Positions 9,179-48,257 of a DNA stretch of 64,000 nucleotides are shown in pieces. The stretch comes from Microbacterium sp. BK668 (lineage in GTDB: Bacteria > Actinomycetota > Actinomycetes > Actinomycetales > Microbacteriaceae): the NCBI RefSeq assembly GCF_004362195.1, contig NZ_SNWG01000001.1:2356001-2420000 (forward strand), given 5' to 3'. Under the pieces are notes generated by a model. It saw nothing but the letters and a program-made list of their open reading frames with translations, did no database searches and was not told the origin of the DNA. Position numbers and translations under genes: made by a program. The first letter of the stretch is position 1, and the number at the start of each line of letters is the position of its first letter.

Positions 9179-10021
9179 ATGAACGTCGAGCCGTGGACCA
9201 CGATCGGGCAGGGCGACAGCGGGCCGGTCGTCGCCGGCATCCAGTACCTTCTGCGGGCACGCGGCTTCGGCGTCGATCCCGACGGGATCTTCGGACCGCA
9301 GACGCGGGCGCGCGTGGTCGACCTGCAGACCACCGACGGGCTTCCCACGGACGGGATCGTCGGGCCGGTCACATGGCCGAAGCTCGTCATGCAGACAGGT
9401 TCCGGGGCAACGGGCGACGCCGTGCGCGCCGTTCAGCAGTTCCGGCTGCTGCGATCGCCGGGCGACACGGCCCTCACCGTGGACGGAGAGTACGGCCCGC
9501 GCACCGAGGAGCACGTGGAGTTCTTCCAGGAGTCGTGGGGACTCACGCTGGACGGCATCGCGGGGCGCGAGACGTGGTCGTTCCTGAGCACGGCGTCACC
9601 CGGTCCCCGCCCCTGGCCGCTGGTCAAGGAGGGATTCTCGCAGGCGACCAACTGGCGCGTCCTCGCCGCGCAGCACCTTCTTCGTGCGCACGGGGCCTCG
9701 ATCGTCCCCGACGGCGTCTTCGGACCCGCCAGCGGCGCCGCGGTCTCGGCCTATCAGCAGACGCTGCGCGCGTCGGACATCTCGACGACGCTGGGCCAGC
9801 TCGACTGGCCGGCGATCGTCGTCGAGGTCCGCCAAGGCGACGAGGGCGAGGCGGTCAAGGCGCTGCAGACACTGCTCCCCGGCGAGCTGGCGGTCGACGG
9901 CGGCTTCGGTTCGATGACGGATGCCGCCGTCAGGGAGTATCAGACGATGTTCGCGCCCCCCGCGGACGGCATCGTCGGACCGGTCACGTGGCAGTCCCTG
10001 ACGCTGCGCATCTTCGACTGA
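9179..10021 (+). CDS. Protein of four peptidoglycan-binding (PG_binding_1-like) repeats
   Basis: A 280-residue protein consisting almost only of four tandem modules. Each begins with a turn such as GDSGPVVAGIQYLL, passes through a VDGxFGP element (PDGIFGPQTR, VDGEYGPRTE, PDGVFGPASG, VDGGFGSMTD) and ends with DGIVGPVTW or an equivalent. These are peptidoglycan-binding type 1 units. There is no signal peptide, transmembrane segment, lipobox or catalytic domain, so how it would reach the wall is unclear. Repeats 1 and 4 share an almost identical terminal DGIVGPVTW. AAAGGAG precedes the ATG. It is convergent with the large regulator gene, six bases apart. Confidence 0.8.
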   Translation: MNVEPWTTIGQGDSGPVVAGIQYLLRARGFGVDPDGIFGPQTRARVVDLQTTDGLPTDGIVGPVTWPKLVMQTGSGATGDAVRAVQQFRLLRSPGDTALTVDGEYGPRTEEHVEFFQESWGLTLDGIAGRETWSFLSTASPGPRPWPLVKEGFSQATNWRVLAAQHLLRAHGASIVPDGVFGPASGAAVSAYQQTLRASDISTTLGQLDWPAIVVEVRQGDEGEAVKALQTLLPGELAVDGGFGSMTDAAVREYQTMFAPPADGIVGPVTWQSLTLRIFD

Positions 10022-10027
10022 CGGCCC

Positions 10028-13000
10028 TCACCCGTCCTCTCCTGAACACGTCGGCGTCTGCTCCGCGTCGCCGAAGTACGTGCGCCACTCCGTCGGTGTG
10101 AAGTCGCGGCCCACCATGCGGCAGGCGGCATCCACCATCCGATCGGGATCGAGATCCCACAGGAGCACGCCGTCGGCGAGGTCGGTCACCATCCGGGTCC
10201 CGCTCGGACTCAGGTACGCGCCCGGACCCACGATGACGCCCGAGGCCGGGAGGGCGGCGAAGCCCCGGTCCGGCTGCACGGTGGTGGTGCCGCCGAGACT
10301 GCGCAAAGTCTCGGCGTCGTACAGGGCCACCCCGCCGCTGCCGGTCAGCAGCAGCGTCCTGCCGTCGTCGCTCAACTCGAACTCCGCGCCCGCGGCGATC
10401 GGCTTGGGGGCGGTCAGGATCGGCTGGAGGAGGGGCGAGCTCAGACGCAGCCCGTTGGCGCTCGCGCTGACGATCCGCCCGTCGTTCAGGGGGATGGATG
10501 CGGTGTCCCCTTCGAGCCCGCGGGCGATCTCCTCACCCGTGCGGAGGTCGTAGACGCCGGTGTAGGACTGCGCTTCGTGACGGTCCCGCCACGTGACGAC
10601 GGCTCGTTCCTGCCCGGGGATCTCATTGACGGAGAGGAGGTTGAAAGAGTCCGTCAGATCCTTCTCGGCGAAATCGAGTGCGGAGCCCGCGGCCTGCCCC
10701 GTCGCCGGGTCGAAGGCCGCGATCCAGTCGTTGTAGAGGACGAAGGAGAGCGGACCGGGGCCTCCAGGCACCGGATAAGTGAGGTCGACCGCGGTGATGG
10801 TCTCTCCCTCGATGGCCCAACTGCGGGAGCCGGGCACGTCCGACAGCGGCGGCGTGACGTATCGTTCGCCCCAGCGCGCCACGACGCCTCGACCCACGGC
10901 ATCGATGTGATGCGCGCTCGGTCCGATGCTCCGATCGGCCTCGAGATCCCACACCGTCTCGTCGAGGACGCTCGGGTCGTACGAGGCGCTCGGGAGGCGG
11001 GTCACGATCGCCCCTTCGTCGATGAATCCGTCGACCGCCACCCGGCCGTCGGCGACCCGGGTGGTCAACGGGCCGGTGCCGTCGAGAGGGAAACGCTGCG
11101 CGAAGGATCCCGGCCGGTCGCTGACCACGACGAGTGCTCCGTCGGCTGACACCTCCGCCCGACGCAGAGCGGACGCGTGCGACTCGAAGCGCCTCCCGGT
11201 CGGCATCCCGTCCTCGAGGCGGCCTTCCCACGAGACCGTCCCGAGGCAGATGAACGACTGCTCGCCGGGGACCGGCACGATCGACTCGCACCGGTCCACG
11301 TCTTCGCGGACCCAGAGAGCCGAGCCATCGGCCGGGTCGATGCGGCCGATGCCGTCCCGACCGGAGCCGAGGAGCATCCCCTCCTCGTCGACCGCCAGGC
11401 TCCACTGCATGACCTGCTCCGGTCGGTCCCATGACCGCACGAGGTTGCGCGCGGCGGCGTCATAGATGTCGACGCCCCGCTGTCGGGCAACGGCGATCGC
11501 GCCGTCGGGCAGAGTCGCGACGCCACCCAGGTGCTCGTCTCCGGGCGGTCCCTCATTCGACACGGCCGACGCGGAGGTCGGCGTCCCGCTTTCCAGGTCC
11601 ACCCAGATCGGATGCCTCGACCGCGCGTTGCCGACCGCAGCCCACGAGCCGTCGGCATTGAAGGCGGCATCGGAGTCGGCCAGCCAGCGGGTCTCCTGCG
11701 TGGGTCCGACCGGCAGCCCGGAGGCGAGATCGAGGAGCGTCACCGAGGTCGTGCAGCAGTCGCCCTCACGGCGGGCGATCCACGCCGGGGTGAGGACGAT
11801 CGCGGTGCGAGCCGATGGGTCGATGTGCACGGCGCCCGAGCGGGATGTCGGGTTGCTCGGCAGTTCCGCGGAAAGCGTCCGCACCCGCTCGCCCGTCCGG
11901 CCATTCCACACCTCCGCGCGGGCTCGGCCGTCGCTCGGGTCGTCGGTGACGGCCAGGATCTCGTCGGTGCCGGGGATGACGGCGGCGGAGAGCCGGACGC
12001 CCGCGCCGAACGAGATCTTCGCCGTCGGGCTGTCGGGCGCCGAGAGGACCGTGAAGAGGGCGGCCCGGCCGCGCGGGTCGTCCGGGAAGCGCTCGTGGAG
12101 CTCCGCCGCGATCAGCGCGGCGAGATCGCGATCGGAGGAGACGAGCGCAGCGGCACTGGCTGCCAGGGCCTCGATGCGGGCGTCGTCCTCGGCCCTCCGC
12201 GCGTCGTCGCCCCGCACGACGGCGATCGCGCCCGACACGAGGGCGACGCACAGGAGGCCGGCCGCCCCGCCGAGCGCCCACCGCAGGCGGCGGTTCTGCC
12301 GGCGATCGCCCTCGGCCCGTCGTTCGAGCTCCTGACGCTCGCGGTCGGCGAGCGCGACGGAATCGTCGAGGTATGCGCGCTCCACCCCCGTGAGGTCGGG
12401 AGCCGCGCGCTCCCGCCAGTCGAGGGTCGCCTGCAGGCGGGCGCCGTGCAGCAGCTCGTCGGCCGGCCTTCCCGCCGCGTCCCACGCGAGGGCGTCGGCC
12501 TCGACGCGACGGAGGAGCCGCATGCCTTCGGCGTCGTCGTCGAGCCACCGGTCCAGGCGCGGCCAGGCGGAGGCGACCGCCTCGTGCGCGATCACGATGC
12601 TGTCGCCGTCGATCATGAGCAGTCGCGCGGCGACCAGGTCCTCGACGACGCGCCTGCGCGCGGCATCCTCCAACAGCGACCGCGTCGGCACGCGGCGCCT
12701 GCCGGTCACACCGTCCGGGCCGCGATCGACGAGTCGGAGAAGCACCGCGCGGCACACCGGACGGTCGCCCGCCGGAAGGGACTCGTAGCACTCCTCCGCC
12801 GACTGCGCGATCGACCCCGCGATTCCCCCCGAGTTCTCGTAGCCGTCGACGGTGAGGGTGGACCCGACGCGGCGCGCCCACGTCTCGACCAGCGCGTGCG
12901 AGAGGTGGGGGAGCACGGCGGGCCGGTCCCCGGCATCCCGCATCAGCAGCTCGACCAGTCCGGCTTCAAGGCGCAGCCCCGCCCGCCGCGCCGGCTCCTC

Positions 13001-14254
13001 GATGGCGGCGCGCAGCCCCTCGGGGGACAGGGCACCCAGCACGAGCACCTCGCGGCCGATCGCCGGACCGACCCTCGGAAGCACGCTCGCGGCATCGAGG
13101 CTGTCCGAGCGGATGGTGGTGACCACGGCGCCGCCGGAGTCGAGGTAGTCGCGCAGTGCGGTGGCGAAGCTCTCCGCACCGTCGGAGGGGAGACGGAGCA
13201 CCTCCTCGAGCTGGTCGACGGCCGCGACGTCCACCGCGACGCCGCCGTAAACCGCCGCACGGAGAGTCGCGATGCCCGCCTCGTCCGGATGCACGACACG
13301 CGTGATGCGACCGAGGTCCGCAAGCGCCGCCACGACGCCTGCCCGCAGCACCGAGGACTTGCCCGAGCCCGACGGTCCGGTGATGGTGGCGACCGCCCCG
13401 GGCTGCACGCGCTCGACGAGCGTGGCGACCTCGGCTGCCCGACCGAAGAACAGGTCCACGTCGTCGAAGTCGAAGGGGCGCAGGCCGACCCACGGGCAGG
13501 CTCCGTCGGCGGCTTCGCTGCGCACGGGCGGCGCGAGCAGCGGATCCTGGCGGAGGATCGCCGTCTCGAGCGCTCGAAGACGCGGTCCGGGGTCGATGCC
13601 CAGTTCGACGTCGAGCTGCTCGCGAGCCTGTCGCAGCGCGTTCAAGGCGTCCGCCTGGCGGTTGCTCTGGTACAGGGCCGTGGCGAGGATCGCCCATCGG
13701 TCCTCCCGGAGGGGTTCCGCCCGGGCGAGTCGCTCGGCATCCTGCACGACCGACCGCGCATCCCCTGCTGCCAGCCGCATCTCGAGGAGCTCTTCCTCGG
13801 CGCTGACGCGGATCTGCTCCAGCCGGGAGCTCTCGGCGACGCCGGGGGGCCACTGGGTCACGTCCGCGAACGCGCGGCCGCGCCAGAGGGCGAGGGCTCG
13901 CCGGTACGCGTCGACCGCGCGATCGGGTTCTCCGCGCACGGCCCGCTCCCGGGCCTCGTGCACGAGCTCCTCGAAGCGCACCGCGTCGATCGATGCCGGC
14001 TCTCCCGTGAACACATATGCGCCCGAGACCGTCTGGATGGCGTCGTGCCCGAGCCGCGCCCGGATCTCCGCGATGGCGGTCTTCACCTGCTGCCGCCACG
14101 TCGCAGGCGGCCGCTCGCCCCATGCGGCATCAGCGAGCTCGCCCGGCTCGACCGGGAGGCCGCGGCGCACGATCAGCGTGGCGAGAATCGCTCGTTCTCG
14201 CCGCGGAAGGGGACCGGCGTCGACTTCCAGCGGGCCGAGCACATCGACGGCCAT
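10028..14254 (-). CDS. AfsR-like SARP/BTAD regulator fused to nSTAND NTPase and beta-propeller
   Basis: A 1408-residue multidomain protein. Residues 1-85 are a SARP winged helix and about 90-235 the bacterial transcriptional activation (BTAD) helical domain. An nSTAND-type NTPase module follows, opening with CPWVGLRPFDFDDVDLFFGR (252-271), Walker A GPSGSGKS (293-300) and a Walker-B-like VDQLEE near 347. A single hydrophobic segment at about 658-680 suggests membrane anchoring, and the C-terminal ~700 residues look like an irregular beta-propeller sensor. Family knowledge says SARPs activate transcription from direct repeats; STAND modules act as NTP-controlled switches. The gene is divergent from a small lipoprotein, with candidate SARP sites in the gap. 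Confidence 0.85.
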   Translation of the reverse strand: MAVDVLGPLEVDAGPLPRRERAILATLIVRRGLPVEPGELADAAWGERPPATWRQQVKTAIAEIRARLGHDAIQTVSGAYVFTGEPASIDAVRFEELVHEARERAVRGEPDRAVDAYRRALALWRGRAFADVTQWPPGVAESSRLEQIRVSAEEELLEMRLAAGDARSVVQDAERLARAEPLREDRWAILATALYQSNRQADALNALRQAREQLDVELGIDPGPRLRALETAILRQDPLLAPPVRSEAADGACPWVGLRPFDFDDVDLFFGRAAEVATLVERVQPGAVATITGPSGSGKSSVLRAGVVAALADLGRITRVVHPDEAGIATLRAAVYGGVAVDVAAVDQLEEVLRLPSDGAESFATALRDYLDSGGAVVTTIRSDSLDAASVLPRVGPAIGREVLVLGALSPEGLRAAIEEPARRAGLRLEAGLVELLMRDAGDRPAVLPHLSHALVETWARRVGSTLTVDGYENSGGIAGSIAQSAEECYESLPAGDRPVCRAVLLRLVDRGPDGVTGRRRVPTRSLLEDAARRRVVEDLVAARLLMIDGDSIVIAHEAVASAWPRLDRWLDDDAEGMRLLRRVEADALAWDAAGRPADELLHGARLQATLDWRERAAPDLTGVERAYLDDSVALADRERQELERRAEGDRRQNRRLRWALGGAAGLLCVALVSGAIAVVRGDDARRAEDDARIEALAASAAALVSSDRDLAALIAAELHERFPDDPRGRAALFTVLSAPDSPTAKISFGAGVRLSAAVIPGTDEILAVTDDPSDGRARAEVWNGRTGERVRTLSAELPSNPTSRSGAVHIDPSARTAIVLTPAWIARREGDCCTTSVTLLDLASGLPVGPTQETRWLADSDAAFNADGSWAAVGNARSRHPIWVDLESGTPTSASAVSNEGPPGDEHLGGVATLPDGAIAVARQRGVDIYDAAARNLVRSWDRPEQVMQWSLAVDEEGMLLGSGRDGIGRIDPADGSALWVREDVDRCESIVPVPGEQSFICLGTVSWEGRLEDGMPTGRRFESHASALRRAEVSADGALVVVSDRPGSFAQRFPLDGTGPLTTRVADGRVAVDGFIDEGAIVTRLPSASYDPSVLDETVWDLEADRSIGPSAHHIDAVGRGVVARWGERYVTPPLSDVPGSRSWAIEGETITAVDLTYPVPGGPGPLSFVLYNDWIAAFDPATGQAAGSALDFAEKDLTDSFNLLSVNEIPGQERAVVTWRDRHEAQSYTGVYDLRTGEEIARGLEGDTASIPLNDGRIVSASANGLRLSSPLLQPILTAPKPIAAGAEFELSDDGRTLLLTGSGGVALYDAETLRSLGGTTTVQPDRGFAALPASGVIVGPGAYLSPSGTRMVTDLADGVLLWDLDPDRMVDAACRMVGRDFTPTEWRTYFGDAEQTPTCSGEDG

Positions 14255-30079: not shown

Positions 30080-30484
30080 GTGGTCACGCAGCTTGTCGAG
30101 TACTCCATGGCCGACGGGAGCACAGTGGTGGTCGCTTCGACCGCGCCGGACGCATCGGAGCTTCCGCGCGGGCCCGTGCTTCGCGGCGGGCTCAGCTCGG
30201 AGGCCGTCGTCACGCGGGCGGGCGAGTCATTCGAGGCTGTCGTCCAACGAGCGCAGCCGGCAGCGGCCGCCGTGCTGAACGCTGTGCGCTCGGGTCCGCA
30301 TCCCCCAGCGGAGGTGACGGTCGAGTTCGGCCTGCAGCTGTCGGCGGAGCTCGGAGCGGTGATCGCATCGTCGGCCATCCAGGCGAACTTCACGGTCACG
30401 CTGACCTGGAGGCGCGAGGAGTCGGGCGAGCGGGCCGCGACATCCATCCCCCCGACCGCATCGCCGACTACTGATTCCGCGTGA
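30080..30484 (+). CDS. Trypco1-like (CU044_2847 family) protein
   Basis: A 134-residue protein, mostly beta, with the pattern VTQLVEYSMADGSTVVVAST, an SFEAVVQRAQPAAAAVLNAVR helix and VTVEFGLQLSAELGAVI. This matches my recollection of the trypsin-co-occurring domain 1 family, small partners of proteases and NTPases in bacterial conflict or signalling loci. GGAAGGTG provides the ribosome binding site for the GTG; upstream in-frame sequence is low quality. Its 3' end overlaps that of the convergent CHAT gene by 17 bases. Confidence 0.65.
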   Translation: MVTQLVEYSMADGSTVVVASTAPDASELPRGPVLRGGLSSEAVVTRAGESFEAVVQRAQPAAAAVLNAVRSGPHPPAEVTVEFGLQLSAELGAVIASSAIQANFTVTLTWRREESGERAATSIPPTASPTTDSA

Positions 30485-32255
30485 TGAAGATCGCGAACTC
30501 GCCGCTGTTGTCCGCGAGGTCGGTGTCGTTGACTCCGACGAGAAGGTCGCCCTGCGCTGGGCATTCGTAGGTCGTTCCGGTGCCGATCGGGAAGATGTCA
30601 GGCGTACCTTCGAGCCTGCCGATGACGGCCCCCGTGCCGACGTCGGGCAAGATGCGCGTGTCGGTGGTCGCGTCGGTCGTCAGTCCGTCGGGATCGATCT
30701 CCGACTCCCGGGTCTCGTCGAGCCATCCGCGCCCACTCGCCTGGATCTCGAGCTCGTCCCCGAGCATGCAGTAGAGGCCTGCCTCGACCCAGTCGGTGTC
30801 CAGCGGAACCGAGAGATCGAACGTGCTCGCCTGGTCCTCAGGACCCCCTCCATCCGTGCCGCCGAAGAGCCCCTGCGCCACCGCGAGAAGAACGCCGGCC
30901 CCCACGACGACCGCTGTCACCGCCGTGGCGCCGACGATGAGCCAGCGCCTGCGGGCTCGCGAGCCGGTGGCGGCGGGCTTGGTGGGGACATCGGGTCGTG
31001 CGTTCGACGTGCCGGTCGGCTCATCTGCGCGCGCTGGGTCGGATGCCGCATCCGCCCGTTCTCCGGCGACCGGCGGTTCGGCCCCGCCGTGCGAGGGGTC
31101 GAGCGCAGCAGGGGACGTGCGAGACGAGTGCTCCTGTCCGGACGTCGGCCGCAGGTCGAACAGGTTCCCGTCGCCCCTGAGGTAGAGCACCGGCGTGACC
31201 CATTCGAGGGTGCCCCGGCCGGCGCCGAGGATGCCGATGCGGCCGCTCCGCACGGCCTCGTCGACGCGGCGATTGTGCGCGAGCGCTGTGTAGAAGCCGC
31301 GCGCGAAGGCGAGTGCGGCGGGGTCGCTGATGGAGAACTGCATCGCCGCGACGGCGCGGATGCCGCTTCGTGCGAGCGCCGCTGCGGTGCCCGAGAAGAG
31401 GTCGGTCGCGCCGCTCGCACCGGATTGGCAGGAGTTCAGCACGACGAGGCGCGGAGTGGGCTCGGCCTCATCCAGGAGGTCGGCCAGGGCCGAGGCCGGC
31501 GCGAAATCGGCCCGACCGTCCCGGCCGACGAAGGCGAGGACGCCCTCCTCGGTGGCGCTGTCGTAGGCGCCGTGACCGATGAAGTGCAGCACGTGCCACT
31601 GCTCTTCGAGCAGCTTCGCATGAAGCCCATCCCACGTGAGGTCGTCGAGCCAGCGCAGTTCGACCCGCCCATCCGCGATGTGAGGCTGTAGCGCCTCCTC
31701 CAGCCGGTCGCGCTCCGTAGCCACGTCGAGCGGCTCGAGACCCCGCGGCGATGAGATCATGCCCAGGACGCGGAGCGGTCGCGTTACCTCGAGCGGCGGC
31801 GCGTGCGGGGCGGGCACGCTGCGCACGAGCGGGTCCTTGCGGCAGATGTATCGCTGGGTCACCGGGTCGTACAGGGCCTCCCAGGGGAGAGCCGCGAGGC
31901 CGGGCGCCGAGAGCCGGAGCGAGACCTGCAGACCCTCCCCGCGCTCTGCGGCCAGAGCCGCGCTCGTGCGGTAGGCCGTACCGACGGAGCCCGTGAACGC
32001 GGCCTCGAAGAGCCGCCGGCCGACGTCCTGCAGAACCGTCTCCTTGTCGGACATCACTCGGCGCGCGGCCACGGCCGAGGCCAGCACACTCGCCTCGAGA
32101 AAGGACAGGCGAGCGAGAAGCTGATCGATGTCGAGCTGGAAGCTCTCACTCGGCTCGCCGGCCCCCACCGACTGCAACACGCGCGTGACGAACGACCCCG
32201 GCTGCGTGCCGGGGGCGATCTCGAGTTCCATCACGGCCGAGCTCATCGCCGCCAT
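30468..32255 (-). CDS. CHAT-domain protease, membrane-anchored, with lectin-like C-terminal domain
   Basis: A 595-residue protein. The N-terminal half is a CHAT (caspase HetF-associated with TPR) peptidase: catalytic His228 in HFIGHGAYD and Cys276 in VVLNSCQSGA. A Pro/Ala/Ser-rich linker (~372-432) leads to one transmembrane helix (~438-461). The C-terminal ~120 residues are beta-rich (TDWVEAGLYCMLGDELEIQA to LLVGVNDTDLADNSGEFAIF), resembling PA-IL/LecA-type sugar-binding domains. This topology puts the protease inside and a possible glycan sensor outside. It is convergent with the Trypco1-like gene. Start ATG 32255; 32246 is an alternative. Confidence 0.85.
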   Translation of the reverse strand: MAAMSSAVMELEIAPGTQPGSFVTRVLQSVGAGEPSESFQLDIDQLLARLSFLEASVLASAVAARRVMSDKETVLQDVGRRLFEAAFTGSVGTAYRTSAALAAERGEGLQVSLRLSAPGLAALPWEALYDPVTQRYICRKDPLVRSVPAPHAPPLEVTRPLRVLGMISSPRGLEPLDVATERDRLEEALQPHIADGRVELRWLDDLTWDGLHAKLLEEQWHVLHFIGHGAYDSATEEGVLAFVGRDGRADFAPASALADLLDEAEPTPRLVVLNSCQSGASGATDLFSGTAAALARSGIRAVAAMQFSISDPAALAFARGFYTALAHNRRVDEAVRSGRIGILGAGRGTLEWVTPVLYLRGDGNLFDLRPTSGQEHSSRTSPAALDPSHGGAEPPVAGERADAASDPARADEPTGTSNARPDVPTKPAATGSRARRRWLIVGATAVTAVVVGAGVLLAVAQGLFGGTDGGGPEDQASTFDLSVPLDTDWVEAGLYCMLGDELEIQASGRGWLDETRESEIDPDGLTTDATTDTRILPDVGTGAVIGRLEGTPDIFPIGTGTTYECPAQGDLLVGVNDTDLADNSGEFAIFITRNQ

Positions 32256-42677: not shown

Positions 42678-45212
42678 TCAGAATCCCGCGCCGTGCGCCA
42701 GAAACGGCGCCACCACGCCGGACTCTTCGGACGCCCGGCCGAGGGCCACCGCGGGAGGGTCCCCCGCGGCGAGTCGCGCATGCATGGCGCCGAGCAGGTC
42801 GCACGCGATGTCGTCGCCCACCACGACGGGCGATGCCACGACGCATCGTGTGCCGGCGTGCAGCCAGGCCCGTGTCATTCCGGCCGCCTCCTCACCCCAG
42901 CGGACGGAGGAGCGGCCGAGCTCGCAGGCGGACAGCACGACCGTCTGCGGAATACGGGGCATGCGGTCTATGTCGTAGCCGAAGAGCGCGCCGTCGGAGA
43001 GGTCCAGGCCCGAGAACTGGGGATTGTCGACGGAGTGGCGCCCGTGCGCCGCGATGTGCAGCACGTCGGCTCCCGCGGCCACCTCGGCGACGGCATCCAC
43101 TGTCGCCCCCGCATCGCGCAGGATCACGGGCGAGACCCACGACCTCGCCGCGCGCGTCACCTCTTCCTCGCCGCGGGGAACGTTCGGTCCGACCGCGAAG
43201 GCGGCCGTCCGGGCACCGGAAGAGGACGTCAGGCGCCCTCGTACCCACTTCGAGGCCGAAGGCGTCACCGTGACCGCCCGGCCCCGGAGGTCGGGGAGCA
43301 TCGTCCAGGGGATTCCGCTCAGGATGCCGGGAACCGTGATCACGATGCGGGGGGCGTCGAGGATGCCGCGCAGATCGTGCGGCAGCAGGCACGTCGCCAG
43401 GCGGCGGAGCCGGGCTTCGAGTGAGCTGCGGACAACGCTCGCGAGCGGGCCGGTGCGGATGGATGCCGTCATGTCGAGGTCTGACCGGAGCCCGGCGATC
43501 GCGGTCCGCGCAGCCGAGACGTCGACGTGCACCAGCCGGACGTCTGCCGGTCCGACTGCCAGTGCGACGAGCGATCTCCCGTCGTGCACGAAGGAGAGAA
43601 TCGCTTCGTCGTGAGTCAGCGCCGCCTGCGCCTCGTCGAGCCCCACGCGTCCCTCGAGCCCGGCGGTGCCCGTCTGCGACCACTGCCGCTCTCGTGCGCG
43701 GTCGCGAAGGAACGCGGCGCGGGGCGTCGAGAGCCACTCCCCGTCCGGAGAGGCGGCGCGGATCCTGCGGAGCTCGGCGAGGTCGGCGGCGGCCTCCGGG
43801 TCGGGAGGCGGTCGCAGCGGAACGACCTGCGTGCTCATGTGACGAGTCCGCTCGGACCAGTGGAAGACGACGGCCGGCCGTCCGGATCGGAGCGCGGATG
43901 ACAGTCCCGCGACGAGGAGTCCGCGGCCGAGCATGATCGACGCTCCCTGCAGCTCGAGGCTGCCGGTGGCCTGCCGGGATCGCTCGAGCAGCTCCAGCCC
44001 GCGCTCGGCCTGGCGTCGCGCCTCGGCCTCCCGGCCCGCGGCACCCGCCCGCAGCGACCGCAGCTCGGCCGCCGTCAGTGCCGCCTCGAGCGGGAGTCCC
44101 GACGTCGTGCGCACGATCGGGTCCCGGGTGTCGAGCCCGCTGCGGCGGAGGCGTGCGATGCGCTCCGCGAGGCGCAGGATCGCAGCGTCCCCCGCAATCC
44201 CGGCCGCCTCCAGCTCCCGGGCGAGCGACGCGATCTCCTCCGCGGACGGAAGCCGCCGCATCCTTCCCGATCCCGCCCGGTCCTCGCCGGCCGCGAGGAG
44301 ACGCGCGCGCTGGCGGACCGCCTCGGCGCGAAGGGCGCGGGCGTCACTGCCCAGCCGGCGGAAGCGTCGGGCCGCGGCGGAAGCGGCCCGTGCCGCGCCC
44401 GCTGCGTCGTGGCGCAGGAGCGACCGCGCGAGGGCGTACTCTGCCTCCGCCTGCTCGCGCACCGCGCGAAGCGTGCCGAAGACGCGTGCGACGTTCGCCA
44501 GCGCCGCCTCGGCCTCGCCGGTGAGGCCCGCGTCGGCGAGAGCCTGGGCGCGGTCGGACTCGTTCGTGGCCGCCCACAGCTCGGACTCGGCGTCGAGCGG
44601 AGCCCGGACGCGCTCCATCGTCCGCAGCGCCGTCACGACGTCGCCCTCGAGCATCGACACGTAGCCGTGATTGTGGACCGCCTGCCCCGCGGCCAGCAGG
44701 TCGCCCGCATCGAGGTACGCCTGCTCCGCCCACTCCAGGTCCGCCTTCGCCGACGCGAAGTTCCCGCGGTCCATCTCGACGAGCGCGCGGTTCATCCGCA
44801 TGTTGGCCGCGCGCACGGGGTCGTGCGCGAGTCCCCGGATGCTGCGTCCCAGCCAGTCGGCGGCGCTGTCGAGGCGCCCGCGGGACATGTCGATCGACCC
44901 GAGCTGGCCCTGCAGGATCGCGGTCGTCTCGCGCGAGATCCCGGGGCGGTGCAGAGCCTGGCGACACAGCCGCTCGCCGGCTGCGGCGTCGCTGGAGATC
45001 GCGAGGAGGAATCCGGTCGTCCCCGCCACGCGCGCCGCCAGGTCGACGTCGCCGTCGGCCTCCGCGGCGGCTGACGCCCGCGCGAGCACCCGGCGTGCCG
45101 CGGCATACCGACCCGCGTTGACGTCGGCGACACCGCGCTGGTACAGCGCCGCGGCCGAAGAGCCGGGTGCCGTCCGCCGCGCGGTGCTCGGCGACGCCGC
45201 GTCCACCGTCAT
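42678..45212 (-). CDS. TPR-CHAT protease
   Basis: An 844-residue protein without signal peptide. The N-terminal ~450 residues are helical repeats of TPR type (AAALYQRGVADVNAGRYAAA; AVHNHGYVSMLEGDVVTALR). The C-terminal CHAT domain carries catalytic His723 in LHIAAHGRHS and Cys763 in VVLSACELGRSS, with VPGILSGIPWTMLPDL typical of the fold. CHAT proteases are caspase relatives; the bacterial TPR-CHAT protease of the gRAMP/Craspase system cleaves a partner to trigger a response. Here it is the last gene behind a subtilase, a small partner and a sigma factor, separated by 39 bases from the subtilase. GAGG precedes the ATG. Confidence 0.85.
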   Translation of the reverse strand: MTVDAASPSTARRTAPGSSAAALYQRGVADVNAGRYAAARRVLARASAAAEADGDVDLAARVAGTTGFLLAISSDAAAGERLCRQALHRPGISRETTAILQGQLGSIDMSRGRLDSAADWLGRSIRGLAHDPVRAANMRMNRALVEMDRGNFASAKADLEWAEQAYLDAGDLLAAGQAVHNHGYVSMLEGDVVTALRTMERVRAPLDAESELWAATNESDRAQALADAGLTGEAEAALANVARVFGTLRAVREQAEAEYALARSLLRHDAAGAARAASAAARRFRRLGSDARALRAEAVRQRARLLAAGEDRAGSGRMRRLPSAEEIASLARELEAAGIAGDAAILRLAERIARLRRSGLDTRDPIVRTTSGLPLEAALTAAELRSLRAGAAGREAEARRQAERGLELLERSRQATGSLELQGASIMLGRGLLVAGLSSALRSGRPAVVFHWSERTRHMSTQVVPLRPPPDPEAAADLAELRRIRAASPDGEWLSTPRAAFLRDRARERQWSQTGTAGLEGRVGLDEAQAALTHDEAILSFVHDGRSLVALAVGPADVRLVHVDVSAARTAIAGLRSDLDMTASIRTGPLASVVRSSLEARLRRLATCLLPHDLRGILDAPRIVITVPGILSGIPWTMLPDLRGRAVTVTPSASKWVRGRLTSSSGARTAAFAVGPNVPRGEEEVTRAARSWVSPVILRDAGATVDAVAEVAAGADVLHIAAHGRHSVDNPQFSGLDLSDGALFGYDIDRMPRIPQTVVLSACELGRSSVRWGEEAAGMTRAWLHAGTRCVVASPVVVGDDIACDLLGAMHARLAAGDPPAVALGRASEESGVVAPFLAHGAGF

Positions 45213-45251
45213 CCCGTATGCCTCACTCCGACCGGCCGCTGCGGGAGTCGT

Positions 45252-46922
45252 TCACCGCGACGCGGGGCGCGAGGCATCCCACACCGAGAGCTCGCGGGGC
45301 GACAGCGCCGTCACGAGACCGTCGAAGGTGGGAGTCTCCGGCCTCGTGCCCGACGTCAGCTGCGACGCCATCCCCTGCGCGATCAGGCCGGCGACATACG
45401 GCGCCGCGAACGAGGTCCCGCTCCAGATGGCGAACCCGCCGTGGAAGTCATCCGGGTCGATCATCGTGCGCGTGAGACCGTGGCGGTCGTCGCGCGCCGC
45501 GGGGGCGAGACCGCCGGTGAAAGAGGCGGGAAGCGTGCTCACCACCGACGTGCCCGGCGCGTAGAGCCGCACCCACCCGCCGATGTTGCTGTAGAGCGCG
45601 ACGGAGCGCCGGTCGGGGTTGAGCGCGCCGACCGACACGTGAGGGGCGAGGTCCGCCGGTTCGGGACCGAGGCCGAGCCCCGGCTCGCTGCCCTCCCACA
45701 GTGCCGCGGGGAACGCCGGTCGATCGGTCGAGTCGTTGCCGGCCGAGCACACCACCACGACGCCGCGCTGTCGGAAGTCGACCAGGAGGTCGTAGAGCGC
45801 GGTCGAGAAGAGGCCGTCCTCGGGTGTCTCGTGATAGTAGCCCAGGGAGAGATTCAGGACGTCGAGGGACAGCGGGTCGCTTCCGTGATCCATGAGCTCG
45901 AGGAGTTCGTCGAGGGCCGTCAGCAGCTCGCTCTCGAGCACGGTGCCGTCACTGTCCGCGACGCGGACGGCGAGGATGTCGGCATCGGGCGCCGCCTGCC
46001 GGACGATTCCGCACACGAAGGTGCCGTGACCGGATGCCGCATCCAGCCGTCCGTCGCGGGGTCCGGTCTGGTCGGGATGGGTCTCGGGATCGGTTTCGGC
46101 CTGATCGACCCCGACGACGGCGGGGGGCGTGGACGAGGGAAGGCGGGCCTGCACCCACGGGTCGTCGGAGCCGTCCGGACCCGGAAGCCACGCGTGCTCA
46201 CCGCATCCCGTGTCGACGACGGCGACGACGGGTCGCCGTCCCTCCTTCTGGACCGAGAAGGTCGGCGCCGGCGCCGCGCCGACGTACGTGACGACCTCGA
46301 GTCCTCCCGAGCCCGCCGAGGCGTAGCTGTCCAGTTCGCCGGCGGGATTGGTGCGGGCGAAGGGGTTGGTGCGTGCGAAGGGATTCGTCCGGGCGAACGG
46401 GTTGGTGCGTGCGAAGGGATTGACGCCGATGTCGTCGAGCGTGAGGACGTGGTCGAGGCCGACGGATCGCAGCGGGTCGTCCGGGGTCGGAGAAAGTGCA
46501 GGGGATACGGGGAGGCGCCGGCCGACGCCGGGCGCACCGCCTGCCCCCACGGCCGCGCGGCCGGAGACAGCGCGGCGCCGGGCGTGCTGCAGGAGGCGCC
46601 ATGCGTCGACGGGCACGGGGGGAACGACCCCGTCGGCCGGGCGGATATCCACCCGCGTGAGCTGCGCGCCGCGTGCGCGCGGCCGTTCGCGCTTGCGCGG
46701 GGGCCGGAGCACGACAGGTGAGAGTTTCCAGCCGAACGCTTCGGCCGCGGTCCCGAGCCGCTCGAGCGCGCCGGCGGGCTCGCCGGAGATCAGCAGGTGC
46801 CCGGGCATGTAGACCGTCGGGAACGCCGCGATCCCGCTCACGGTCTCCGCACGGGGATCCAGAGGCACGCCTCGGGGCACCGCCGCCGCTTCACGATCGC
46901 GCCAGTTCGAATCGTCCGCCAT
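45252..46922 (-). CDS. Cytoplasmic-type S8 subtilisin-like protease with NPFART repeats
   Basis: A 556-residue serine protease with the complete catalytic set: Asp237 (VAVVDTGCGEHAW), His299 (SGHGTFVCGIV), oxyanion Asn396 (CSAGNDST) and Ser504 (WSGTSFAAPYVAG). There is no signal peptide. The N-terminal ~165 residues form a separate domain, then come four exact NPFART hexapeptides (168-191), a fifth partial NP, and the protease domain. The repeats sit where an activation linker would be. GGGAG precedes the ATG at 46922. It lies between the small sigma-partner gene and the TPR-CHAT gene on one strand. Confidence 0.88.
   Translation of the reverse strand: MADDSNWRDREAAAVPRGVPLDPRAETVSGIAAFPTVYMPGHLLISGEPAGALERLGTAAEAFGWKLSPVVLRPPRKRERPRARGAQLTRVDIRPADGVVPPVPVDAWRLLQHARRRAVSGRAAVGAGGAPGVGRRLPVSPALSPTPDDPLRSVGLDHVLTLDDIGVNPFARTNPFARTNPFARTNPFARTNPAGELDSYASAGSGGLEVVTYVGAAPAPTFSVQKEGRRPVVAVVDTGCGEHAWLPGPDGSDDPWVQARLPSSTPPAVVGVDQAETDPETHPDQTGPRDGRLDAASGHGTFVCGIVRQAAPDADILAVRVADSDGTVLESELLTALDELLELMDHGSDPLSLDVLNLSLGYYHETPEDGLFSTALYDLLVDFRQRGVVVVCSAGNDSTDRPAFPAALWEGSEPGLGLGPEPADLAPHVSVGALNPDRRSVALYSNIGGWVRLYAPGTSVVSTLPASFTGGLAPAARDDRHGLTRTMIDPDDFHGGFAIWSGTSFAAPYVAGLIAQGMASQLTSGTRPETPTFDGLVTALSPRELSVWDASRPASR
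46350..46421 (-). repeat. Four tandem 18-bp units encoding NPFART
   Basis: Inside the subtilase gene, four consecutive 18-bp units encode the same hexapeptide. The DNA units are not identical (for example CGCACC versus CGGACG for Arg-Thr), so the protein sequence is conserved while synonymous positions have drifted. Confidence 0.85.
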
Positions 46923-46997
46923 CTCGCCGCTCCCTTTCTGCGCCGGAGCCCGGTCTCCGACGTCATCATGGCCCTGAGGGCCGGGGGGCCGCACGTC

Positions 46998-47468
46998 CTA
47001 TACCTCGAATCGCGGCGTCCGGAAGTCGCGCAGGTCGCCGTCCGCGCCGCGGACGACGAGATGCAGCCGCGTGACGCCGGGTGGAATCCCGTCGAAGGCG
47101 AACCGGCCGTTCTCATCGGCGGACGAGGGCCAATCCCGTCCGTCCTGCACCAACCGGATCGCGAGGACCGCGGCATCCACCCACCCGTCGACCCGGCGCG
47201 AGCCGTCCTCCGCCGCCGTCACATGCAGGAGCACGTTCGTCTCGCCGTCGCTGAATTGCAGCGTCGACGTGTCGGACTCACCGCGCACAGCGACCCGCGT
47301 CGATCCCTCGACGAGGGTCAGCAGAGCGTAGTCGCGCGAGAGATCGGCGACGGCCACCGCGGCGACCATGCGATCGGCGAGGTCCGGCGGCACCGGGTCG
47401 GTGTGCTCCCACATCCCACGCAAGCGCGCGAAGACCGCGGCATCCGCGCCGGCTTCCTCATCGTCCAT
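46998..47468 (-). CDS. Small protein overlapping the ECF sigma gene, possible sigma partner
   Basis: A 156-residue protein. Residues 1-50 are helical and acidic (MDDEEAGADAAVFARLRGMW) and resemble the short cytosolic partner segments of sigma factors; the rest is beta-rich and ends in ENGRFAFDGIPPGVTRLHLV, a pattern like carboxypeptidase-regulatory or other Ig-like domains. No membrane segment is present, so it is not a classical anti-sigma factor. Its ATG lies 11 bases inside the end of the sigma gene. Role inferred from position only. Confidence 0.65.
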   Translation of the reverse strand: MDDEEAGADAAVFARLRGMWEHTDPVPPDLADRMVAAVAVADLSRDYALLTLVEGSTRVAVRGESDTSTLQFSDGETNVLLHVTAAEDGSRRVDGWVDAAVLAIRLVQDGRDWPSSADENGRFAFDGIPPGVTRLHLVVRGADGDLRDFRTPRFEV

Positions 47469-48093
47469 GTTCTCGTCCTCCCCATCCGGCGCGCTCGAGC
47501 TCGGCGCGGAGCTTGGCGAGACAGCGCTGCCGGGTCGGCCCGATGGAACCGACGGGCATGGCCAGGTCCTCGGCGATCCGCGCGTAGTCGGGTCTCTCGT
47601 CGAACGCGACGATGCGCAGGAGGTGTCGGCATCGGTCATCGAGCCGCGCCACCGCGGTCCACAGGCGGACCCGCTCGTCCGCGGCGCCGGCCTCCTGCTC
47701 CGCCGACTCGTGCACCGGAAGGTGCGACTCGAGCGACTCGGCTTCGGTCGGCGTCGCGCGGCGGTGCTGCCGGCCCACCCGCCAGGCCTCCCGCCGAGCG
47801 CACATCGTCAACCAGCCCGACACGGCGCGGGGATCCGCGATCGACGCGTGTCGTCGCACGAGGGTGAGCCAGGTGGTCTGAACGACATCCTGTGCCAGAC
47901 CGGCGTCCAGGCCGTACGAGCGGACGATGTGCCACAGGGCGGGCGTCATGAGGCGCACGAGCTCGTCCATCGCGCGGCTGTCCCCTTCGCGCCATCGCAC
48001 GAACAGCGCGCCCGCGTGCTCCCATCGAGCGGGCTCGACGGAGTCGACGGATGCCTCGGCGCCCCCGTGCGTCATAGCGCCCATTGTGTCCAC
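47458..48093 (-). CDS. ECF-type RNA polymerase sigma factor
   Basis: A 211-residue sigma-70 family protein. Region 2 is visible as FVRWREGDSRAMDELVRLMT through GLAQDVVQTTWLTLVRRH, and region 4 as LLRIVAFDERPDYARIAEDL with SIGPTRQRCLAKLR. It heads the sigma, partner, subtilase, TPR-CHAT gene run and probably controls it. Three starts are close together: GTG 48093, ATG 48084 and ATG 48075; the ribosome binding site does not decide. Confidence 0.85.
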   Translation of the reverse strand: MDTMGAMTHGGAEASVDSVEPARWEHAGALFVRWREGDSRAMDELVRLMTPALWHIVRSYGLDAGLAQDVVQTTWLTLVRRHASIADPRAVSGWLTMCARREAWRVGRQHRRATPTEAESLESHLPVHESAEQEAGAADERVRLWTAVARLDDRCRHLLRIVAFDERPDYARIAEDLAMPVGSIGPTRQRCLAKLRAELERAGWGGREHGR

Positions 48094-48257
48094 GTGGAGA
48101 AGAGAGCGATAGTGCCCAGGAGATACACGTGAGCAGGATCGGTTTCCCCCGGCTCGGATGTATCACGCCTGCGGAGGTCGGCCTCATCCGGTGACGCACG
48201 CACGGCGGGGCGTGTCACGGGGGAGGAGGATGCCGCGACCCGAGGCATCCTCCTTCC

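Follow-up and report, generated by a model that had tools for sequence, protein, structure and literature searches.

A homogeneous, lineage-private peptide array in the subtilase linker of an ECF54-type sigma factor module and its possible role in protease recognition

The 64,000-nucleotide stretch of Microbacterium sp. BK668 DNA analysed here (the window; contig NZ_SNWG01000001.1 of a high-GC genome of 3.73 Mb) carries four open reading frames (ORFs) in tandem on the minus strand at 42678-48093. They encode an extracytoplasmic function (ECF) sigma factor, a small soluble partner (hereafter SMALL), an S8-family subtilase and a protease with tetratricopeptide repeats and a CHAT domain (TPR-CHAT). 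This four-gene set is not new, since it is already in print for the sigma factor group ECF54, but unexplained there in the passages on that group (PMC8999054). What is new is a homogeneous, lineage-private tandem array of short peptides in the S8 linker, which comprises four perfect copies of NPFART in the window (46350..46421, minus strand; residues 192-215). A preliminary description of this DNA had named the NPFART motif, but both the lineage-private nature of the array and the exchange of S8 and CHAT as a block had escaped it. The module consists of two halves, a slow one in which ECF and SMALL co-diverge and a fast one formed by the S8 zymogen and much of TPR-CHAT. Based on sequence comparisons we tentatively propose, with a probability of about 0.4, that ECF-SMALL represents the conserved output and that the S8 zymogen and TPR-CHAT form a co-adapted pair, for which the array would provide a private recognition or processing site. 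The locus would then be a specificity locus, whose lineage-private protease pair is defined by a peptide barcode in the activation linker and drives a sigma regulon including a multi-hairpin RNA. Its alleles would move as an S8-TPR block between constant sigma-partner and CHAT catalytic ends, comparable to polymorphic self-recognition or immune-receptor loci.

The S8 protein (580-aa ORF) exhibits the domain order of unprocessed pro-subtilisins, with an I9-like prodomain (46440..46826, minus strand; residues about 57-185) ahead of the linker and the catalytic domain (45255..46283, minus strand; residues about 238-580). In the predicted structure the array is located inside a stretch with a pLDDT (predicted local distance difference test) below 50 (residues 189-236), and the linker is probably disordered according to this model. 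For comparison we established a working set of 126 non-duplicate loci (designated by L numbers, window included) with S8 scores of at least 290 bits against the family profile; 12 further loci were dropped, because their prodomain-to-catalytic linker was identical to that of another locus. The script called a tandem array for 117 of the 126 loci, with units of 4-7 residues in 2-13 copies. The nine loci without a call comprise one with the array at a contig end (L057), one whose visible array was missed by the script (L175), two with spaced repeats (L079, L192), four with repeated words that are not in tandem (L069, L070, L072, L073) and one without any repeat (L089). No paper on the array was found in the open-access literature.

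The array statistics are based on the 114 loci with at least three copies, window included, among which 60 distinct units occur. The copies are identical at the protein level in 100 of these arrays and at the DNA level in none. The proportion of nonsynonymous differences (pN) is 0.015 within arrays and 0.377 between loci, the latter determined for 99 hexamer arrays, while the corresponding synonymous values (pS) are 0.514 and 0.526. Silent divergence within one gene thus approaches the level between loci although the encoded peptide is the same, which is explained by selection for sameness and not by recent duplication. Slippage or gene conversion as the source of array identity was rejected on this silent divergence, and a functionless minisatellite homogenised by these processes, to which the varying copy number (2-13) would conform, is hardly credible. 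Selection for sameness within the protein, combined with change between lineages, explains the pattern, as judged from these substitution data. Active diversification of the DNA copies was rejected as well, because the observed codon differences per pair (0.368) are below the 0.442 expected from each locus's own codon usage (draws for 100 homogeneous arrays; simulated range 0.409-0.472). Two further sources of the unit were discarded. A copy from another protein of the operon is contradicted by the 83 hexamer loci compared, in which ECF, SMALL and CHAT resemble the unit of their own locus no more closely than units from elsewhere, and in the own genome the peptide has a good match to the S8 array alone (5e-15; next 0.025). 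In L041, L153 and L184 two or more versions of the unit are mixed within one array, and these arrays are possibly in transition.

Proline is followed by F, Y or H in 87 of the 99 hexamer arrays and preceded by N in 71, D in 11, S in six and another residue in 11. According to the passages on intracellular subtilisins in PMC6220982, P-[YFH] ends the inhibitory LIPY/F motif, [LVI]-[IFLV]-P-[YFH], which blocks the active site of these enzymes. This precedent keeps alive an explanation in cis, in which the S8 active site takes the recurring P-[FYH] core as a pseudo-substrate and the private sequence co-varies with the S8 pocket, with CHAT as an independent effector of the operon. The likeness to intracellular subtilisins and pro-subtilisins extends to the S8 fold and its residues, the I9-like prodomain and the domain order; the array sits at the zymogen junction, and of all domains those of S8 show the highest correlation with the unit distance (see below). 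However, the published motif requires a hydrophobic residue before proline, where N, D, S or A is usual here, and a search confined to the arrays did not recover the complete motif. Tandem units of 4-7 residues moreover fill the linker, and no order is predicted for the array, while one copy would suffice for inhibition; neither the multiple identical copies nor the covariation with the TPR half are accounted for. We therefore regard pseudo-substrate inhibition in cis as rather doubtful.

Divergence of the array runs parallel to that of S8 and, to a lesser degree, to that of the TPR half of CHAT, but not to that of SMALL. In 71 Microbacterium-like loci the unit distance, with the ECF distance held, correlates with the S8 catalytic domain (0.62), the S8 prodomain (0.58), the half of the CHAT protein that comprises the TPRs and the linker (0.43; 43647..45212 of the window, minus strand, residues 1-522), the CHAT core (0.21) and SMALL (-0.11). 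When each unit was represented by a single locus (28 units, 300 draws), the mean correlations were 0.43, 0.32, 0.33, 0.16 and -0.09 in the same order, and label permutation of one 28-unit set resulted in p values of 0.001, 0.006, 0.009, 0.082 and 0.79. S8 itself correlates with the TPR half at 0.50, with the CHAT core at 0.28 and with SMALL at -0.01. SMALL is equally near to S8 on its other side and yet shows no correlation, which argues for a partnership of S8 and the TPR half. The divergence of SMALL instead follows the sigma factor (ECF-SMALL Spearman 0.74, also with S8 held; ECF-S8 0.21), and SMALL is therefore paired with the latter.

TPR receptors of the RNPP type sense short peptides. 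The array could accordingly be viewed as a peptide precursor, from which cuts between the copies free identical hexapeptides as a private intracellular or exported signal that is sensed by the TPR half. As in multi-copy peptide precursors, identical short copies are found in one gene with a TPR protein nearby, whose divergence follows the unit, and the copies (2-13, of 4-7 residues) are the same within a gene and different between lineages. Unlike such precursors, the copies are situated within the linker of an enzyme, between two domains to which they may be no more than a plain connection, and neither a leader nor an export signal was seen in S8; a transporter was not found either, although no search was aimed at one. 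A release of signal peptides is thus quite improbable.

The second line of evidence for a co-adapted pair is provided by a comparison of the 95 loci for which all parts were scored. ECF and SMALL are both at least 80% identical in 117 pairs, 48 of which exhibit S8 catalytic domains with less than 60% identity; the unit differs in all of these 48 pairs and in 25 of the remaining 69. The clearest example is the pair L044 and L064, with 94.6% DNA identity over 1161 bp across ECF and SMALL. Within S8 and most of CHAT, blastn found no match at E 1e-10 and covered about 10% at 1e-5, and the identity resumes at 86% across the last 131 codons of CHAT and the flank. By comparison with the window protein, these codons hold the catalytic His and Cys. 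The left break of the 48 pairs is located at a median of 3 bp past the SMALL stop (at most 30 bp in 35 pairs) and the right break at a median of 1254 bp ahead of the CHAT stop. Strong splits of the ECF+SMALL tree are contradicted by strong S8 splits in seven of 24 cases and the converse is true for 11 of 35, while TPR splits contradict four of 35 S8 splits. To judge from these alignments, S8 and much of TPR-CHAT look to have been replaced together in one block, with ECF-SMALL remaining constant next to it.

Several observations weigh against a co-adapted protease pair with a private array. Fourteen of the 114 arrays contain a deviating copy or an edge copy included by the script, and farther relatives are devoid of an array. 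When all other domains are controlled, the correlation of the unit with the TPR half falls to 0.08-0.13 and that with the S8 parts to 0.17-0.24; windows along CHAT reveal a slope without a peak, and part of the S8-TPR correlation could originate from co-transfer of neighbouring DNA. The 48 discordant pairs stem from 12 loci and are not independent, a share of 0.10-0.87 of their S8-CHAT middle can still be aligned, and many pairs are less clear than L044 and L064. Finally, no S8-CHAT allele was found to move between distant ECF backgrounds except in the pair L055-L171.

The co-adapted pair is nevertheless supported by the conserved order and strand of the genes, the array statistics, the place of the array at the zymogen junction, the block exchange, the co-divergence and the precedent of Craspase. 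In this type III-E CRISPR system (Csx29, Csx30, CASP-sigma), the substrate of the TPR-CHAT protease is Csx30, an inhibitor that binds an ECF-like sigma factor (relevant passages of PMC10028731). The parallel had been drawn in the preliminary description and is apt in outline, as a TPR-CHAT protease is likewise encoded beside an ECF-like sigma factor and a partner protein. The agreement of the TPR-CHAT proteins is one of domain content, and Csx29 is absent from the best 60 PDB rows. Further differences are the lack of a Csx30-sized partner (SMALL has 156 aa, Csx30 565) and the presence of an S8 zymogen with an array. For the module we infer binding, a cascade of cleavages and a trigger as follows. 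The cognate TPR-CHAT would read the array as a multivalent site for docking or processing and, upon the trigger, engage it and cut or release the linker, thereby freeing S8 from its prodomain. Either S8 or CHAT might then remove SMALL, and the freed sigma factor would transcribe its own operon and, in relatives, also a second unit directly after CHAT, which holds either a candidate structured RNA or the gene of a small protein. Whenever the array changes, the matching TPR half would change as well, resulting in a private, insulated pair per lineage. Coded recognition between two proteases is suggested by a repeat that is homogeneous yet lineage-private, sits at a zymogen junction and is exchanged jointly with the TPR half of its caspase-like partner. 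If true, the module would represent a bacterial counterpart of allelic specificity systems, made from caspase-like and subtilisin parts, whose output would be the sigma factor and possibly an RNA.

The loci of the working set were retrieved via S8 or SMALL, and co-occurrence was measured among these. S8 was matched in 47 of 118 related genomes, and SMALL in 87 out of 394 from the class, with the own genome counted in both cases; the loci from named genomes are the best 80 of 540 confirmed. The supposition that the four genes form a cassette proved correct in this survey, with the order ECF-SMALL-S8-CHAT on one strand in 112 of the 126 loci. Eight loci are rearranged (seven with S8 first, and L153 with CHAT before S8), and in six one or two genes were not found in the stretch examined; four of the latter are located on short contigs (L012, L056, L057, L193) and two are not (L147, L192). 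All four genes are present in 120 loci, invariably on a single strand. Named loci with the complete set mostly belong to Microbacterium, but also to Nocardioides, Cellulomonas, Klenkia, Rhodococcus and more. Forty loci were fetched by SMALL, out of the 87 genomes matched, and eight of them contain ECF and SMALL without an S8 or CHAT match in the stretch (L088, L092-L096, L098, L112); the ECF and SMALL relatives adjoin in L092-L096, L098 and L112. This arrangement suggests that ECF-SMALL is a unit of its own. Other SMALL-fetched loci have shorter, rearranged S8 and CHAT genes and no array. Extra DNA with other ORFs separates S8 and CHAT in L049 (about 9650-13700) and L051 (about 9670-10960), both of which retain the two genes. 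A plasmid-borne module was rejected, based on a single match in 72,556 records, which is part of an 11.85-Mb Nonomuraea record.

The locus is an ECF54-type module, assigned by gene context rather than by the sequence profile of the group. The review PMC8999054 describes ECF54 sigma factors of Actinobacteria in a conserved context with carboxypeptidase-, subtilase- and CHAT-domain genes, which is also found here, with a sub-threshold carboxypeptidase-regulatory match for SMALL; its passages on ECF54 mention no array, block exchange, second promoter or RNA. They propose proteolytic control, and this context and proposal are in favour of a scenario in which subtilase and CHAT degrade the sigma factor and keep its level low, with the array as a drifting spacer. 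A drifting spacer would not hold protein-identical copies with near-saturated silent sites, however, and the divergence of ECF is scarcely coupled to that of S8 (Spearman 0.21), which is not strictly required of a substrate. Sigma-level control of this kind is accordingly unlikely.

All four ORFs and their domains agree with the preliminary description, according to Pfam and TIGR matches. The sigma factor gene (47458..48093, minus strand; 211 aa) has a GTG start with an ATG three codons in and matches sigma70-ECF (TIGR02937, E 2.4e-18) and Sigma70_r2 (E 3.4e-8). For SMALL (46998..47468, minus strand; 156 aa), whose divergence goes with the sigma factor, the ATG at 47468 is the more likely start compared with a 213-aa ORF and results in an overlap of 11 bp with the sigma gene. 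Its Pfam matches are all sub-threshold (CarboxypepD_reg, E 0.0087), and its family profile has no significant match in the PDB (best E 0.095). The S8 ORF (45252-46994, minus strand; Pfam S8, E 2.6e-23) extends to a GTG at 46994, while the conserved start, as judged from the sequence, is more likely the ATG at 46922 behind AAAGGGAG, giving a gene at 45252..46922; inspection of the N-terminus without a predictor revealed no hydrophobic signal segment. The TPR-CHAT gene (42678..45212, minus strand; 844 aa) encodes a CHAT domain (Pfam CHAT, E 5.6e-28) at 42729..43412, minus strand (residues 601-828). TPRs are weak by Pfam in the single protein (TPR_9, E 0.12), but TPR proteins of solved structure are recovered with the family profile (best E 5e-16).

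The catalytic residues, reported earlier as intact for CHAT, are invariant among the selected alignment rows, namely, His723 and Cys763 in 45 of 45 CHAT proteins and Asp261, His323, Asn420 and Ser528 in 59 of 59 S8 proteins. Outside these rows, the S8 genes of L082, L083 and L086, which harbor PFTRGA arrays, do not match the catalytic GTS/Ser-motif pattern; either their Ser motif would be a variant one or the enzyme would be inactive.

An anchor was available for 80 upstream regions and lacking for 37 loci; the sequence TGTATCA occurs in 68 of these 80 regions (0.2 expected). The element derived from these regions, TGTATC[AT]-N12-16-[CG]CTC, is read as the putative own promoter of the sigma factor. 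Among the 71 Microbacterium-like loci, 57 have it upstream of ECF and 57 have a copy no more than 130 bp past the CHAT stop, with just seven further matches in 1.21 Mb. Three of the seven lie 486 and 1509 bp past, or just before, the CHAT stop (L037, L046, L171), and one is a divergent site in the window. The window has the putative promoter TGTATCT-N13-GCTC at 48104..48127 (minus strand), one base off the common TGTATCA, and no element after CHAT; its only other site is the weakly supported divergent copy TGTATCA-N15-GCCTC (48159..48185, plus strand), which may start a short RNA ending near a hairpin at about 48224-48255.

In Microbacterium the second element is followed by sequence without a consistent ORF and with a strong hairpin at its end. 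An alignment of 24 post-CHAT sequences folds into 36 pairs, 15 of which have at least one double change, with a covariation term of -2.56 of -44.72, and CTGGGG recurs in the loops of this candidate RNA. Examples with a terminator-like hairpin are L180:11721-11871 and L152:11897-12056; Rfam had no match at gathering score for seven loci. In six loci (L091, L142, L155, L169, L173, L186; five named Nocardioides) the second element precedes a small ORF of one family, which has no Pfam, NCBIfam or significant PDB match and whose chagasin-like look is an impression only.

With regard to conflict systems, which the preliminary description had invoked through Trypco1/CHAT/subtilase combinations, a Pfam scan of the four proteins returned no Trypco row, the presence of a Trypco model in Pfam being unchecked. 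A PADLOC scan of the four proteins yielded nothing for CHAT, SMALL and ECF, and weak general subtilase and IetS matches for S8. An unrelated second CHAT protein of the window (30468-32255, minus strand; 595 aa), which has a hydrophobic segment, matches PADLOC SAVED_CHAT at 3.7e-19.

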